This document shows positions 52,707 through 57,841 of a stretch of 64,000 bases of DNA, piece after piece. Position numbers and translations under genes: made by a program. The stretch comes from Pseudomonadota bacterium (lineage in GTDB: Bacteria > Pseudomonadota > Gammaproteobacteria > Xanthomonadales > Rhodanobacteraceae), in NCBI GenBank assembly GCA_021793575.1, contig JAJYSM010000010.1, positions 1-64,000 of the forward strand, given 5' to 3'. The notes below the pieces were generated by a model that was given only the letters and a program-made list of their open reading frames with translations, was not told the DNA's origin and did not search any database. How positions within the stretch are numbered: the first letter of the stretch is position 1; the number at the start of each line of letters is the position of its first letter.

Positions 52707-53498
52707 ATGAGCCAGTCGCACAGCAAGCAGATTGCCGCCGTGATGGCGCCCGCCGAACCCAGCCGGGTGACCCGGGCGATCCTGGATTTCGTCAGCGAGG
52801 TGCCGGCCAGCAAGATCGGCGACAGCGCCGATCCGGCCGCCGTCGCGCAGCGGCTGGCCAACCGTGCGGCCCAGCGCGCCGCGCTTGCCGCCGGCTCGCT
52901 GGCGCTGCCGCCGGGGCCGCTGGGCTGGCTGACCCTGCTGCCGGAGCTGATCGCGATCTGGCGGATCCAGGCGCAGATGGTCAGTGACATCGCCGCCGCC
53001 TACGGCCGGCACGCCGCGCTGGGGCGCGAGCAGATGCTGTGGTGCCTGTTCCGGCACACCGCGGCACAGGCGTTTCGCGACCTGGTGGTGCAGGTGGGCG
53101 ACCGGCTGGTGTTTCGCCGCATGTCGCACGGCGTGGTGCAGCGCGTGGCCAAGCAGGTCGGCAGCAAGCTCAGCCGGCGCGCGATCGGCGAGGGTGTATC
53201 GCGCTGGCTGCCGGTGATCGGCGCGCTCGGCGTCGGCGCCTATGCCTATGTCGACACGACCCAGGTCGCGCGCACCGCCATCACCCTGTTCAGCGGTGAC
53301 ATGGCGATGGAAGGCGCGGTGGGCGCTGCCGAAGCGACGACCGCCGCCGCGGTGAAGCCGGCGCCGCGCAAGCCGGCCGCCGCGGTGCGCCGCGCGGCCG
53401 ACAAGCTGGGCGACAGCGCGCGCGGTGCCGCGCGCAAGGCGGCCGGCACGGTGCGCAAGGTGGCCGCGCGCAAACCGCGGCCGCCGAAAGCGCCCTGA
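52707..53498 (+). CDS. EcsC-like protein with histone-like tail
   Basis: A 263-residue protein. Residues 20-205 resemble the EcsC family: LPPGPLGWLTLLPELIAIWR, YGRHAALGREQMLWCLFRHT and RWLPVIGALGVGAYAYVDT with a membrane-like glycine-rich helix. The last 60 residues are Ala/Lys/Arg/Pro-rich (KPAPRKPAAAVRRAADKL, RKAAGTVRKVAARKPRPPKA), like the H1-like tails of bacterial DNA-binding proteins. Function is unknown. GAGGGAG precedes the ATG. Its TGA lies inside the first hairpin of a dispersed repeat. Confidence 0.7.
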   Translation: MSQSHSKQIAAVMAPAEPSRVTRAILDFVSEVPASKIGDSADPAAVAQRLANRAAQRAALAAGSLALPPGPLGWLTLLPELIAIWRIQAQMVSDIAAAYGRHAALGREQMLWCLFRHTAAQAFRDLVVQVGDRLVFRRMSHGVVQRVAKQVGSKLSRRAIGEGVSRWLPVIGALGVGAYAYVDTTQVARTAITLFSGDMAMEGAVGAAEATTAAAVKPAPRKPAAAVRRAADKLGDSARGAARKAAGTVRKVAARKPRPPKAP

Positions 53499-53651
53499 GA
53501 GGTTGTGACTATTCAACCTCTCAGGCCGGCCAAGGATGGCCGGTCGCGGATCGGGTACGCCAGTGCCTGATCCGCGTGAGCGAGTCCGGACATGCGCCGG
53601 ACTCGCGATGGAAGAAAACCACAGGAAGTGGTTTTCTTCACAAGCTCTGAG
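53495..53651 (+). repeat. five-hairpin dispersed repeat, copy 1
   Basis: A 157-bp element starting and ending with CTGAG. Five inverted repeats in a row: CTGAGAGGTTG/CAACCTCTCAG (53495-53524), CCGGCCA/TGGCCGG (53526-53543), GCGGATC/GATCCGC (53546-53575), GCGAGTCCGG/CCGGACTCGC (53580-53606), and GAAGAAAACCAC/GTGGTTTTCTTC (53611-53639, perfect 12 bp). The upstream gene's TGA is part of the opening CTGAG. The last hairpin with its U-rich strand could act as a terminator. A second copy is at 56848-57012. Confidence 0.88.
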
Positions 53652-53720
53652 CCTGCGCGCGGGTGACGCCCCGCCCGCTTTGCGGCAAGCTGTCCGCTGG
53701 ACTGCCGCCGGAACCCACGC

Positions 53721-54467
53721 ATGACGCCATCCCACGACCGCCCCGTGGCCCTGATCAGCGGCGCCGGCCGGCGCGTCGGCGCGGTGATCGCGCGCACCCT
53801 GCACGCCGCCGGCTACGATTTGGCGCTGCACTATCGCCACTCCGCCGATGCCGCCCGCGCGCTGGCTGATGAGCTGGAAACGAGGCGCTGCGGCAGCACC
53901 CTGCTGCTGCAGGCCGAACTGGCCGACCTGGCGGCGCTGCCGGCGCTGGTGACACAGCTGCTGGTGCATTACGGCCGACTCGATGCGCTGGTCAACAATG
54001 CCTCGGCGTTCTACCCCACGCCGGTCGGCAGCGCCACGCCGGCGCAGTGGCACGAGCTGTTCGCCTCCAACGCACAGGCGCCGTTCTTTCTCAGCCAGGC
54101 CGCCGTGCCGGCGCTGCGCGCGGCGCGCGGCGGCATCGTCAACCTGGTCGACATCTACGCCGAGCGCCCGCTCGCCGACCATCCGCTGTACTGCATGGCG
54201 AAGGCCGCACTGGCCGCAATGACCCGCTCGCTGGCGCTCGATCTGGCGCCCGTCGTGCGCGTCAACGGTATCGCCCCCGGCGCCGTGCTGTGGCCCAGCG
54301 ATGGCAAGAATGGCGACGACCAGCAGGCCATGCTGGCGCGCACGCCGCTGCAGCGGGCCGGCACACCGGAAGACGTCGCCGGCGCGGTGCTGTGGCTGCT
54401 GCGCGATGCGCCGTATGTCACCGGCCAGATCATCCGCGTGGACGGCGGTCGCACGCTGCCGCTGTGA
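53721..54467 (+). CDS. folM: pteridine reductase (FolM-like SDR)
   Basis: A 248-residue short-chain dehydrogenase. ALISGAGRRVGAVIARTLHA carries the GxGRR variant of the NADPH loop typical of pteridine reductases; NNASAFYPTPVG is the NNAG region; DIYAERPLADHPLYCMAKAA contains the catalytic Tyr-x-x-x-Lys (YCMAK); the C-terminus VTGQIIRVDGGRTLPL is standard. It should reduce dihydromonapterin or dihydropterins, alongside the folK and folB genes facing it. Bases before the ATG hold the dispersed repeat. Confidence 0.88.
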   Translation: MTPSHDRPVALISGAGRRVGAVIARTLHAAGYDLALHYRHSADAARALADELETRRCGSTLLLQAELADLAALPALVTQLLVHYGRLDALVNNASAFYPTPVGSATPAQWHELFASNAQAPFFLSQAAVPALRAARGGIVNLVDIYAERPLADHPLYCMAKAALAAMTRSLALDLAPVVRVNGIAPGAVLWPSDGKNGDDQQAMLARTPLQRAGTPEDVAGAVLWLLRDAPYVTGQIIRVDGGRTLPL

Positions 54468-54527
54468 GCACCGCGATCGAGCGCAACCTGCGGCGCCCGG
54501 CTCGCCAGCGCAGTTCTCCGGTTCCGT

Positions 54528-55016
54528 TCAATCCAACCATCGCTCGAGCGTGAGCGGCTCGCGCTCCACCGGAAAGGCTGCCCACAGCCCGGCCATCGAC
54601 TCACCGCTGAGCGGATGGCGGACGTCCGGCGCGATGTCGGCGAGCGGTCGCAGCACGAACGCGTGCTGCAGTTCCTGGCGCGGAATCTGCAGATGGCCCG
54701 ACCCGGCGAGCACCAGCGCGTCGTACAGCACGATGTCGATGTCCAGCGTGCGGTCGGAGTAGCGCGGCAGGTCGCGGCGGCGGCCGTGGCGGTCCTCCAA
54801 CGCGTGCAGCCAGTCGTTGAGTTCAGCCGGCGCCAGCGTGGTGTCCAGCCCCACCGCCAGATTGACGAACTCCGCGCCGTCGAAACCGATCGACTTGCTG
54901 CGGTAGGCCGGTGACACGTCGAGTGCGCCGAAGCGCGCGCGCAATGCCACCAGCGCGGCACGCAGGTGGCGCTGCGGTTCAAGGTTGGAACCCAGGCTGA
55001 GGTAGACGCGCGCCAT
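54528..55016 (-). CDS. folK: HPPK, hydroxymethyldihydropterin pyrophosphokinase
   Basis: A 162-residue folate enzyme. VYLSLGSNLEPQRHLRAAL, FVNLAVGLDTTL and RYSDRTLDIDIVLYDALVL (Mg-binding Asp pair) followed by IPRQELQHAFVLRPLADIAP are the family blocks. ATG at 55016 is one base after the folB TGA (TGAGATG), so the genes are coupled; the longer start at 55037 would overlap folB. Converges with the pteridine reductase gene. Confidence 0.93.
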   Translation of the reverse strand: MARVYLSLGSNLEPQRHLRAALVALRARFGALDVSPAYRSKSIGFDGAEFVNLAVGLDTTLAPAELNDWLHALEDRHGRRRDLPRYSDRTLDIDIVLYDALVLAGSGHLQIPRQELQHAFVLRPLADIAPDVRHPLSGESMAGLWAAFPVEREPLTLERWLD

Positions 55017-55017
55017 C

Positions 55018-55371
55018 TCAGAGCCTGCCGCGTTCAATGCGCACGCCGACCGCCTTCGCGCCGCGCACGGCGCCGGGTTTGGACAGCTTCAAGCGCACCC
55101 AGCTCACCGGAAACTCCTCGCGAATGATCGCCGCGCAGCGCTCGGCCAGCGTCTCCACCAGGCCAAAGCTCGATGTGCTCACGTAATCGATCAGGCGCTT
55201 GGACACGTCCTTGTAGTTCAGCGTCAGCGCGATGTCGTCGGCAGCCGCCGGCACCGTGTTGTCGAACGCCATCTCGATGTCGAAGGACAGCGTCTGGCGC
55301 ACGCGGCGCTCCCAGTCATAGATGCCGATGATGGCGTCGATGCGCAGGTCTTCGATGAACACGATATCCAT
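55018..55371 (-). CDS. folB: dihydroneopterin aldolase
   Basis: A 117-residue tunnelling-fold enzyme of folate synthesis. DIVFIEDLRIDAIIGIYDWE, DDIALTLNYKDVSKRLIDYV and SSFGLVETLAERCAAIIREE (substrate Glu) and VRLKLSKPGAVRGAKAVGVR (catalytic Lys) are all seen. ATG 55371 gives the usual length; an in-frame GTG at 55383 is an alternative. It forms a two-gene unit with folK. Confidence 0.92.
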   Translation of the reverse strand: MDIVFIEDLRIDAIIGIYDWERRVRQTLSFDIEMAFDNTVPAAADDIALTLNYKDVSKRLIDYVSTSSFGLVETLAERCAAIIREEFPVSWVRLKLSKPGAVRGAKAVGVRIERGRL

Positions 55372-55471
55372 GGCGGCAGTCACTTCGGTGATAGTCGTAC
55401 AGGGTCGGCGAGCCGGCGCGCCGATGCAAGCGCGCAGGGTGCCGCAACGGCCGCCATGCGATCATGTGCGG

Positions 55472-56851
55472 ATGACCGCCTTCACCACACTCCCGCTCAA
55501 ACCCGCCCTGCTCGCCAGCGTCGAGACGCTCGGCTACGACGAGATGACGCCGGTGCAGCAACAAAGCCTGCCACCGATGCTGGCCGGCCGCGACGTGATC
55601 GCGCAGGCGCAGACCGGCAGCGGCAAGACCGCCGCGTTCGGCCTCAGCCTGCTGCAGTCGCTGGACGCCGACACGATCCGGCTGCAGGCGCTGGTGCTGT
55701 GCCCCACCCGTGAGCTGGCCGACCAGGTCAGCAAGGCGATCCGCAAGCTGGCGGCGAACATCCCCAACGTGAAGCTGCTGACCCTGTGCGGCGGCATGCC
55801 GCTGGGGCCGCAGCTGGCCTCGCTGACGCACGATCCGCACATCGTGGTGGGCACGCCCGGGCGCGTGCAGGAACATCTCAAGCGCGGCAGCCTGCACGGC
55901 GGCGGCATCCGCGTGCTGGTGCTGGACGAGGCCGACCGCATGCTCGACATGGGCTTCAGCGAGGCGATCGACGACATCATCGGGCGCATCGCCAAGCATC
56001 ATCAGACGCTGCTGTTCTCGGCCACCTGGCCGGATGAAATCCGCGGGGTCAGCAAGCGCGTGCAGAAGGACCCGGTCGCGGTCACCGTGGACGCGCCGGC
56101 AGAGGAGCGGCCGGCAATCGAGCAGCAGTTCATCGAGCTGGAACAGACCAGCAAGCCGGATGCACTGGCGCAACTGCTCAGTGGTGAAAAGGGCCAGCAC
56201 GCGCTGGTGTTCTGCAACATGCGCAAGGACGTCGACGCGGTGGCGCAGGAGCTCGACCGCCGCGGCCATTCCGCGCTGGCGCTCCACGGCGACATGGAGC
56301 AGCGCGACCGCGACGAGGTGCTGGTGCGCTTCGCCAACCACAGCTGCACGGTGCTGGTGGCCACCGACGTGGCCGCGCGCGGGCTGGACATCGTGGCGCT
56401 GCCGCTGGTGGTGAGCTACGACATCGCCCACGACCCGGAAACCCACACGCACCGCATCGGCCGCACCGGCCGCGCCGGCCAGACCGGACTTGCGATCACC
56501 CTGTGCACGCCGCGCGAGCGGCCGAAGGCGGCCAACATCGAGGCGCTCAGCGGCGCGCCGCTGCCGTGGCGACCGCTGAAGCTCGCTCCGACCCGCAGCA
56601 AGACGCTGCAGCTGGCGCCGATGAAGACGTTGGTGATCGACGCCGGGCGGCAGGACAAGCTGCGCCCCGGCGACATCCTGGGCGCGCTCACCGGCGACGC
56701 CGGCCTGGCTGCAAACGACATCGGCAAGATCGACGTGTTCGCCACCCGCGCCTACGTGGCGATCAGCCGCGCGCTGGCGCCCAAGGCGCTGGAGCGCCTG
56801 CGCGCCGGCAAGATCAAGGGCCGCAATTTCCGCGTGCGCCCGCTCGGCTGA
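55472..56851 (+). CDS. dbpA: DEAD-box RNA helicase DbpA
   Basis: A 459-residue helicase acting on 23S rRNA during 50S assembly. Q motif GYDEMTPVQQQSLPPML, motif I AQTGSGKTAA, Ia PTRELADQV, II LDEADRMLDMGF, III SATWP, V ATDVAARGLDI and VI HRIGRTGRAG. The C-terminal 75 residues (TLVIDAGRQDKLRPGDILGA through KIKGRNFRVRPLG) are the DbpA RNA-binding domain that recognises hairpin 92. The TGA lies in the first hairpin of repeat copy 2. Confidence 0.93.
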   Translation: MTAFTTLPLKPALLASVETLGYDEMTPVQQQSLPPMLAGRDVIAQAQTGSGKTAAFGLSLLQSLDADTIRLQALVLCPTRELADQVSKAIRKLAANIPNVKLLTLCGGMPLGPQLASLTHDPHIVVGTPGRVQEHLKRGSLHGGGIRVLVLDEADRMLDMGFSEAIDDIIGRIAKHHQTLLFSATWPDEIRGVSKRVQKDPVAVTVDAPAEERPAIEQQFIELEQTSKPDALAQLLSGEKGQHALVFCNMRKDVDAVAQELDRRGHSALALHGDMEQRDRDEVLVRFANHSCTVLVATDVAARGLDIVALPLVVSYDIAHDPETHTHRIGRTGRAGQTGLAITLCTPRERPKAANIEALSGAPLPWRPLKLAPTRSKTLQLAPMKTLVIDAGRQDKLRPGDILGALTGDAGLAANDIGKIDVFATRAYVAISRALAPKALERLRAGKIKGRNFRVRPLG

Positions 56852-57012
56852 GAGGCTTTGACTGTTCAACCTCTCAGCCTCTCAGGCCGGCCACGGAGGG
56901 CTGGTCGCGGAGCGGGCATGCCCGTGCCGGATCCGCGTGAGCGAGTCCGGACAGGCGCCCGACTCGCGCTGGAAGAAAACCACAGGAAGGGATTTTCTTC
57001 ACAAGCGCTGAG
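56848..57012 (+). repeat. five-hairpin dispersed repeat, copy 2
   Basis: Same element and orientation as 53495-53651, 165 bp with a short duplication of CTCAG near the start. The opening stem CTGAGAGG.../CCTCTCAG includes the dbpA stop codon. The GCGAGTC / GACTCGC stem and GGAAGAAAACCACAGGAAG are retained; the last stem has two mismatches (GGGATTTTCTTC). It ends ACAAGCGCTGAG, parallel to ACAAGCTCTGAG of copy 1. Confidence 0.88.
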
Positions 57013-57064
57013 ATCGCGTAGCATCCGCTCGCGGCCCACTCTTCACGCCACCGGACTTCCCGCC

Positions 57065-57841
57065 ATGCTGCGACGCCACGCCAGCCTGCTTGCCCTGCTC
57101 CTGCTCGCCGTCTGCGGCGCGGCGCAGGCGGCCATTCCGGTCTACGGCTTCAAGGTGGTGCACAGCTACCCGCACGACTCCCACGCCTACACCGAAGGCC
57201 TGTTCTACAAGGACGGCTACCTGTACGAAGCCACCGGCCAGGTCGGTGATTCCAGCGTGCGCAAGGTGCAGCTGGAGACCGGCAAGGTGCTGCAGCAGCA
57301 CACGGTGCCGCCGCCGTATTTCGGCGAGGGCATCGTCGACTGGAAAGGCAGGCTGATACAGCTCACCTGGCAGAGCCAGCTCGGCTTCGTCTACGACCTC
57401 GACAACTTCCGGCTGCAGCACACCTTCGCCTACCCCGGCGAAGGCTGGGCGCTGACCCGCGACCAGCATCACCTGTACATGAGCGACGGCTCGGCGGTGC
57501 TGCGTGTGCTGGATCCGGACTCGCTGAAGACGGTCGGCAGCATCCTGGTCACCGCCGACGGCGCGCCGGTGACCAACCTCAACGAGCTGGAATGGGTAAA
57601 AGGCCAGATCTACGCCAACATCTGGCTGACCAACCGCATCGCCCGCATCGATCCGGCCAGCGGCCACGTGGTCGGCTGGATCGACCTGCGCGGCCTGCTC
57701 GACACGCGCACGCTGCCCGATCCCGGCAACGACGTGCTCAACGGCATCGCCTACGACGCCACCCACGACCGCCTGTTCGTCACCGGCAAGTGCTGGCCGA
57801 AGGTATTCCAGATCACGCTGGTGAAGCGGGTGTCCCGCTGA
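57065..57841 (+). CDS. glutaminyl-peptide cyclotransferase (bacterial/plant type)
   Basis: A 258-residue secreted five-bladed propeller. Signal peptide ends near GAAQAA (22). VVHSYPHDSHAYTEGLFYKD, YLYEATGQVGDSSVRKVQLE, FGEGIVDWKGRLIQLTWQSQ, WALTRDQHHLYMSDGS and NELEWVKGQIYANIWLTNRI with VLNGIAYDATHDRLFVTGK match the family. It forms N-terminal pyroglutamate on periplasmic or secreted proteins. The gene starts about 50 bases after the repeat. Confidence 0.9.
   Translation: MLRRHASLLALLLLAVCGAAQAAIPVYGFKVVHSYPHDSHAYTEGLFYKDGYLYEATGQVGDSSVRKVQLETGKVLQQHTVPPPYFGEGIVDWKGRLIQLTWQSQLGFVYDLDNFRLQHTFAYPGEGWALTRDQHHLYMSDGSAVLRVLDPDSLKTVGSILVTADGAPVTNLNELEWVKGQIYANIWLTNRIARIDPASGHVVGWIDLRGLLDTRTLPDPGNDVLNGIAYDATHDRLFVTGKCWPKVFQITLVKRVSR

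Follow-up and report, generated by a model that had tools for sequence, protein, structure and literature searches.

A hairpin-rich miniature element at stop codons of Rhodanobacter, probably a relative of IS5 and IS1182 transposons

Among the short repeats described in bacteria, two systems come closest to the element reported here. Miniature inverted-repeat transposable elements (MITEs) derived from the insertion sequences (ISs) IS1182 and IS5 are short, non-coding and multicopy, with terminal inverted repeats, a target-duplication signal and an IS with matching termini. Repetitive extragenic palindromes (REPs and REPINs), linked to REP-associated tyrosine transposases (RAYTs), are palindromic and extragenic and can overlap stop codons; according to a REP survey, GTAG REP ends often supply the TAG stop to flanking open reading frames (ORFs) (PMC3733652). 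SPRITE, BOX and RUP of Streptococcus pneumoniae are likewise short repeats, in different bacteria; a review of prokaryotic MITEs that names them describes SPRITE as rho-independent-terminator-like and mentions terminator-like MITEs, and it contains neither "stop codon" nor "IS1182" (PMC10969869). The present element was found in a window of 64,000 nt (GenBank assembly GCA_021793575.1, contig JAJYSM010000010.1, positions 1 to 64,000), which belongs to a genome of 3.2 Mb in 123 contigs that we assign to Rhodanobacter (order Lysobacterales, class Gammaproteobacteria). There it occurs twice in the same orientation, 3.3 kb apart (Table 1), as a preliminary description of this DNA had reported and as we find in the sequence. 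We consider it very probable that these copies are MITEs whose family belongs to the IS5/IS1182 transposase clade and inserts at CTGA(G), or at CTAG in sister types, and that they are not a REP/RAYT system. It has the features listed above in common with IS1182- and IS5-derived MITEs and differs from them by five covarying hairpins (H1 to H5) kept across many families, by three copies of the terminal repeat, by a stop-codon address and by subfamilies whose termini vary around a similar hairpin core. From REPs and REPINs it differs by its greater length, its terminal repeats and duplication signal, the lack of a visible GTAG or CGTC tag and an occurrence unlinked to the presence of Y1 transposases. 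No description of the element was found, by sequence or by topic, among open PubMed Central papers.

The preliminary description had suggested a miniature mobile element, and the hallmarks of a MITE are indeed present: terminal inverted repeats, a target-duplication signal, dispersed copies with empty sites and, in other genomes, transposase genes with matching termini. The terminal inverted repeat, which exists in addition to the five hairpins and had been overlooked, joins both ends of copy 1 (CTGAGAGGTTGTGA versus CTCAGAGCTTGTGA, 12 of 14 positions matching) and reaches 18 of 20 positions, counted by eye, in the CTAG-type copy L204. Its left copy is the 5' arm of H1 and its right copy prolongs the 3' arm of H5; each unit thus holds three copies, since an inverted one closes H1 as its 3' arm. 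The base preceding CTGA is the same on the left and on the right in 28 of 56 Rhodanobacter copies, against 12.3 expected, a count that none of 20,000 permutations attains; of the 29 copies whose right base is not T, 23 agree. Another 18 of the 74 copies, in which CTGA is inexact at one end, were left out of this count. Orthologous copies are included here and in the counts of 54/71 and 57/70 given below; two counts were repeated without six of them, and the base then agrees in 27 of 52 copies (11.9 expected, 0/20,000), or 22 of 28 for bases other than T. Because agreement so far exceeds chance, a target duplication is indicated. Copy 1 of the window is of the T kind, and in copy 2 the GCTGA at 56847-56851 recurs at 57007-57011, which makes a 5-bp duplication. 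It is safest to put the duplication at 4-5 bp, because the IS copies of genome G170, discussed below, have CTGA at either end and, at the right end, a T in front of it.

The preliminary description had left open whether the element targets stop codons or supplies them. The cleanest case is a copy of genome G043 (locus L120), for which G008 (L121) and G032 (L126) have empty sites, with flank identities of 98% and 92% in the former and of 90% and 83% in the latter; both empty sites read GCGCTGAGCCC at a natural stop. The dbpA gene, which ends in copy 2 of the window, carries GGCTGAGCGC and no element in G009 and G042, so that the CTGAG stop is present regardless; in other species the dbpA stop is TAG or a TGA in different contexts. 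In two further filled/empty pairs the ancestral target is uncertain, as the empty site reads CTAAG or CTGAA. At the testable sites the stop codon is present without the element, which does not look like a supply of stops; the suggestion of an element that targets them is essentially right.

In both window copies the TGA of the upstream gene lies inside the opening stem and CTGAG stands at both ends, as had been described; the TGA occupies element positions 2-4. This address is general in the genus: in 54 of 71 distinct Rhodanobacter copies, positions 2-4 are precisely the end of an ORF with coding-like GC content at third codon positions (GC3), and according to a home-made trained gene caller the TGA falls there in 57 of 70 copies (three locus-edge copies dropped), with no called gene reading through. 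Without the six orthologous copies the figure is 54 of 65 (two locus-edge copies dropped), and no called gene extends more than 25 nt into the element. The address is weaker outside the genus, where 35 of 63 copies lie at a stop codon under a cruder rule. CTGAG sites outside elements, counted in loci around elements, some of which overlap, are noncoding at stops in 101 cases (66%) versus 51 elsewhere, and coding in 484. The excess of elements at stops (81% versus 66%) has a one-sided p of 0.004 for 57/70 and of 0.002 for 54/65. A dedicated stop-codon sensor was considered and dropped as a necessary assumption: none is needed because 101 of the 152 noncoding CTGAG sites are already stop codons, and the excess is modest. 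The motif, together with a loss of coding insertions that selection would bring about, mostly explains the address. The genes that follow stop-codon copies are co-directional in 39 and convergent in 18 of 57 cases, which is no enrichment of convergent neighbours over the baseline of 34% (p = 0.78). Among the 28 copies of loci L198-L223, six whose start is not CTGAGAGG (L199, L201, L202, L217, L218 and L219) have a clear gene end there, as far as open length and GC3 allow a judgement by eye. A solo H1 was also seen at the stop codon of a gene (L010:1501-1532, G000:C14:2417-2448), followed by repeat-like sequence of another kind; the upstream gene resembles ispF and the downstream one truD.

Candidates for the transposase come from other genomes. 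G170 harbours an IS of about 1.67 kb in five copies that encode identical 483-aa transposases of the IS1182 family (NF033551, 347 bits versus a cut-off of 270). The ends of this IS, CTGAGAGGGTGAGAGTTTTTC and GAAAAACTCACAGCCTCTGAG, resemble those of the element, and one of the five copies (L273) sits at the apparent stop codon of a gene open over 382 codons; the same genome carries at least 12 elements with a mean identity of 95.4%, two of them identical. In G243, CTAG-type termini flank a complete 364-aa gene of the IS5 family (261 bits versus a cut-off of 140), and CTAG-type elements and ISs have CTAGCAGGCTGTTGAGAA in common. G424 holds an IS5-family IS (340 bits versus 140) with the ends GGAACCTCTGA and GGGAAGCTCTGAT, and the GGGAAGCTCTGA-type elements of that genome match it in the GGGAAGCTCTGAT end, which both possess. 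To judge from these termini, such transposases presumably move the element. Partial or distant relatives of the G170 transposase occur in 9 of 45 genus genomes, the best being a 53%-identical fragment in G021. DDE_Tnp_1 matches lie at four places of the window's genome; among 18 genomes searched for DDE_Tnp_1 and DUF772, neither was found in the element-bearing G009, G183, G245, G254, G355 and G291. One of the four places in the window's genome, locus L250 (G000:C42:1-2615), also has a CAGGCTGTTGA motif at 506, as in CTAG-type termini.

Several observations weigh against an origin from IS5/IS1182-type transposons. The IS1182 helper was recovered at E<=1e-60 in only 2 of 233 family genomes, namely G170 and, as a broken copy, G204, and the search for relatives of the G170 transposase came up empty in the window's genome; because this helper is so rare, most copies have no findable resident helper. 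A 378-aa ORF with CTAG termini in G008 scores 130 bits, below the cut-off, matches over its first half only and looks frameshifted. L120 has CTCAGG at its right junction instead of the CTGAG that an exact duplication would leave. T is the right base of 27 of 56 copies, above the prediction of a uniform 5-bp duplication, and in other genera the right base is mostly T, with only 4 of 7 non-T cases in agreement. Furthermore, a gene split by an insertion would escape recognition in the gene test used above.

The predicted fold of copy 1 consists of exactly five hairpins, with -103.6 kcal/mol and z = -9.3; copy 2 reaches z = -6.4, and in neither case was any of 200 dinucleotide-preserving shuffles as good. 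Five hairpins had been described for each copy, and this holds; copy 2 is worn, however, and since its H1 contains an 8-nt duplication and its H5 is mismatched, its own minimum-energy fold departs from the five-hairpin consensus. In an alignment of 45 Rhodanobacter copies (A2), made on sequence only and with the structure added by hand afterwards, standard pairs fill 96.4% of pair cells, and both partners vary in 19 of 55 pairs, a number attained in none of 500 shuffles; sliding the pairing partners destroys the covariation, and the measure "further pair types" is reached by 6 of 500 shuffles, the other measures by none. Across 41 order-wide copies both partners vary in 47 of 55 pairs, spread over all five helices (0/500 shuffles), these counts leaning towards structure since the alignment (A4) was fitted to it. 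All five helices covary strongly, and the fold is conserved far more widely than the sequence. In Rhodanobacter H3, G-T outnumbers A-C by 71 to 3, as compared with 27 to 29 in the other four helices; over the order-wide alignment the numbers are 79 to 25. At two H3 positions of the Rhodanobacter alignment G-T is the commonest state (23/45 and 31/45 sequences); the G-T excess in H3, and there only, favours the + strand as the one that folds. The A-rich and T-rich arms noticed earlier in the last stem persist despite base turnover: of 41 order-wide copies, 37 have four or more T within 6 nt of the H5 3' arm and 34 have four or more A within 6 nt of the 5' arm. A simple terminator scan of 53300-57300 found none; its definition wants a T run after the stem, whereas here the T-rich stretch sits inside it. 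The structured 3'-UTR element that the preliminary description had offered as an alternative may also apply, given how strongly the fold is conserved. We infer that some function maintains the fold, with a structure that ends or insulates transcripts or a requirement of transposition as the likeliest candidates, and we rank a structure tolerated or favoured at transcript ends before a transposition requirement, and the latter before palindrome correction driven by replication.

Table 1. Parts of the two element copies, in window coordinates.
Feature	Position	Strand	Basis or remark
Element copy 1, full length, 157 nt	53495..53651	+	covariance scores: R1 185 bits, R2 170 bits
TGA stop of upstream EcsC-like ORF	53496..53498	+	within left CTGA target copy (53495-53498)
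H1, copy 1, 11-bp stem	53495..53524	+	inverted-repeat search, fold, covariation
H2, copy 1, GCCGGCCA/TGGCCGGT	53525..53544	+	fold, covariation
H3, copy 1, 14 bp, covarying	53545..53576	+	inverted-repeat search, fold, covariation
H4, copy 1, GCGAGTCCGG/CCGGACTCGC	53580..53606	+	inverted-repeat search, fold, covariation
H5, copy 1, GAAGAAAACCAC/GTGGTTTTCTTC	53611..53639	+	A-rich 5' arm, T-rich 3' arm
Right CTGAG, copy 1	53647..53651	+	second CTGA target copy and next G
Element copy 2, full length, worn	56848..57012	+	covariance scores: R1 125 bits, R2 114 bits
dbpA TGA stop	56849..56851	+	within left target copy of element copy 2
H1, copy 2, with 8-nt duplication CCTCTCAG	56848..56885	+	inverted repeats, alignment
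H2, copy 2	56886..56905	+	alignment to copy 1
H3, copy 2	56906..56937	+	inverted repeats, alignment to copy 1
H4, copy 2	56941..56967	+	inverted repeats, alignment to copy 1
H5, copy 2, mismatched	56972..57000	+	inverted repeats, alignment to copy 1
Right CTGAG, copy 2	57008..57012	+	sequence

The EcsC match of the ORF that ends at 53498 scores 22 bits, under the Pfam cut-off of 30.4. The earlier statement that the element encodes no plausible protein stands, since the ORF 56858-57841, which crosses copy 2, merely extends the frame of a glutamine cyclotransferase upstream. No Rfam 15 family reaches its gathering score in the window, and seven element loci searched at E<=0.1 gave matches solely below gathering score. 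Such sub-threshold similarity to gyrA RNA (RF01740) and TD-2 (RF03162) was seen in the distant relatives L210 (5313-5401 and 1350-1437) and L222, with E-values of 1.6e-5 and 5.9e-5 for gyrA RNA and of 0.0014 at best for TD-2.

With regard to its distribution, the element gives 12 DNA matches at E<=0.001 in the window's genome, 7 of them near full length and two being one place read on both strands, and a DNA match exists in 26 of 45 Rhodanobacter genomes. Scanning named genomes for the pattern gave 61 stretches, of which the genus-named ones are all Rhodanobacter and the others metagenome bins (Proteobacteria or Lysobacteraceae). Covariance models, whose E-values are rough, extend this range: R1 detects the element in 128 of 233 genomes and 16 of 26 genera of the family (E<=1e-4) and in 90 of 398 genomes and 36 of 98 genera of the order (E<=1e-5), and R2 in 26 of 369 genomes of a class sample (E<=1e-6), 24 of them outside the order and from 16 families. 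Sequences were read for 63 copies in 27 genomes of other genera and for 11 class loci (10 outside the order, 7 families), the other matches of these models entering as counts; copy numbers are lower bounds, as 7-30 candidates were scored per genome for the element. The H1-H5 layout is recognisable in the 11 class loci even with A/T-rich stems, H1 of L307 being short. Similarity searches of plasmids and phages, with one CTAG-type element each, gave no match. Variants of the unit were also encountered: short forms in which the match stops after H3 (query ~92-93), at L008:1501-1587 and on contigs C44, C306, C158 and C97 of G031, and long ones of 226-262 nt (L120:3684-3921, L083, L046, L084 and L062), the extra sequence of L120 consisting of degenerate GGCGAGGGCATGG-like repeats in the H2 loop. 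In L101 near 809 and in L191 near 1266 the end of a second element abuts a shared CTGAG, as if this second element had used the terminal CTGAG of the first as its target.

Copies from the 27 genomes outside the genus have a common core, in which H2 is mostly CATGGATG around the loop, followed by H3, by an H4 that often reads GAGTCCGGACATGTGCCGGACTC and by an H5 with a mostly AGGA-like loop. Around this core the termini vary and are of the type CTGAGAGG[C/T]TGTGA, of the type CTAGCAGGCTGTTGA (also in CTAA, TTGA and CCGG variants) or of the type GGGAACCTCTGA or GGGAAGCTCTGA, often after CTA. On contig C11 of G243 (L254:1151-2578), a 1303-bp IS5-family IS with CTAG at both ends lies precisely where H1 is expected, with H2-H5 after it. 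Since an IS occupies this place, at one locus, H1 may have arisen from an IS by internal deletion, which would make H2-H5 a tail carrying a third terminal repeat; no second case turned up among 75 transposase loci scanned. Near 3397.6-3398.3 kb on contig C1 of G235 (L222:1329-1972), five tandem copies of a 130-bp unit, with 98% matches, correspond to H2-H5 without H1. As the H2-H5 core is retained while termini and target differ (CTGAG, CTAG, CTAA), it is tempting to speculate, at rather long odds, that it is a functional non-coding module common to several transposon lineages of the IS5/IS1182 clade across the class. If so, an RNA that shields or ends transcripts at the site of insertion, or a guide or structural RNA of transposition, would be possible.

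Other origins have to be set against this picture. A hairpin-rich, extragenic element that overlaps stop codons calls to mind REPs or REPINs moved by RAYTs, or a derivative of IS200/IS605, in which an HUH (Y1) enzyme recognises single-stranded hairpins beside a tetranucleotide, and Y1_Tnp genes are found in 36 of 45 genus genomes, two of them in the window's genome. Neither a GTAG nor a CGTC tag was seen by eye in the copies examined, however, and the element is bounded by terminal inverted repeats and shows a duplication of the base that precedes its target, a duplication not being expected from HUH transposition. The link to tyrosine transposases that had been proposed for the element is not supported by distribution either: G042, among the genomes richest in elements, has no Y1_Tnp above the family cut-off, and G007, G010, G011, G029 and G031 bear elements without any Y1_Tnp match. 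The RAYT-like gene of L102 adjoins repeats of a different kind. We have therefore rejected this origin, as highly improbable, on the target-duplication signal, the distribution of Y1_Tnp and the repeats of L102. At that locus (G000:C118, ~18.9-19.2 kb) two near-identical repeats of the other type lie just downstream of the Y1 transposase gene. A recent local duplication of one intergenic region, which the short distance between the two window copies could suggest and which the preliminary description had named as the outcome that would undo it, has next to no chance of being true: the genome holds nine further places (one of them, 37 bp at C106:11890, may be chance), other genera have the element too, and the flanks of the two copies do not match, so that this explanation is refuted.

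Two further explanations concern what maintains the position and the pairing. The element might have been recruited by the host as a mobile terminator or as a stabiliser of mRNA 3' ends, its place at stop codons then reflecting functional selection. The residual excess at stops, the conserved fold with its persistent A-rich and T-rich H5 arms and the G-T bias of H3 speak for such a role, which we regard as possible though doubtful, because the T-rich H5 arm overlaps the A/T-rich terminal repeat and may be kept for the transposase instead, outside H3 Rhodanobacter copies have no G-T excess, convergent neighbours are not enriched and the simple terminator scan came back blank. Alternatively, the pairing could be upheld without selection on the fold, by template-switch correction of imperfect palindromes during replication, a process by which the two arms of a quasi-palindrome become alike and which would look like covariation. 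The parity of G-T and A-C outside H3 agrees with it; the two H3 positions at which G-T is the commonest state, and a layout with loop motifs still recognisable in copies from seven families outside the order, do not, and we judge this explanation unlikely.

Returning to a MITE of the IS5/IS1182 clade, its unit would consist of a left terminal repeat, an inverted copy closing H1, the hairpins H2-H4 and an H5 that passes, by its 3' arm, into the right terminal repeat. A transposase acting in trans would recognise the termini and insert the unit at CTGA(G), or at CTAG or CTAA in the sister subfamilies, with duplication of a 4-5 bp target. Insertions at gene ends would leave the protein unchanged, because the motif holds the stop codon and one copy of it is kept on the upstream side, and those at CTGAG within coding sequence would be lost, presumably through selection. 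This offers a simple account of how a transposon may spread harmlessly through gene-dense genomes, by means of a target motif that contains a stop codon and is kept intact. The element also adds a structure whose fold is conserved beyond the sequence of its stems over many families, and which has no match at gathering score in Rfam 15 here. Finally, the family provides many natural replicates with which to test whether mobile hairpins end or stabilise transcripts.

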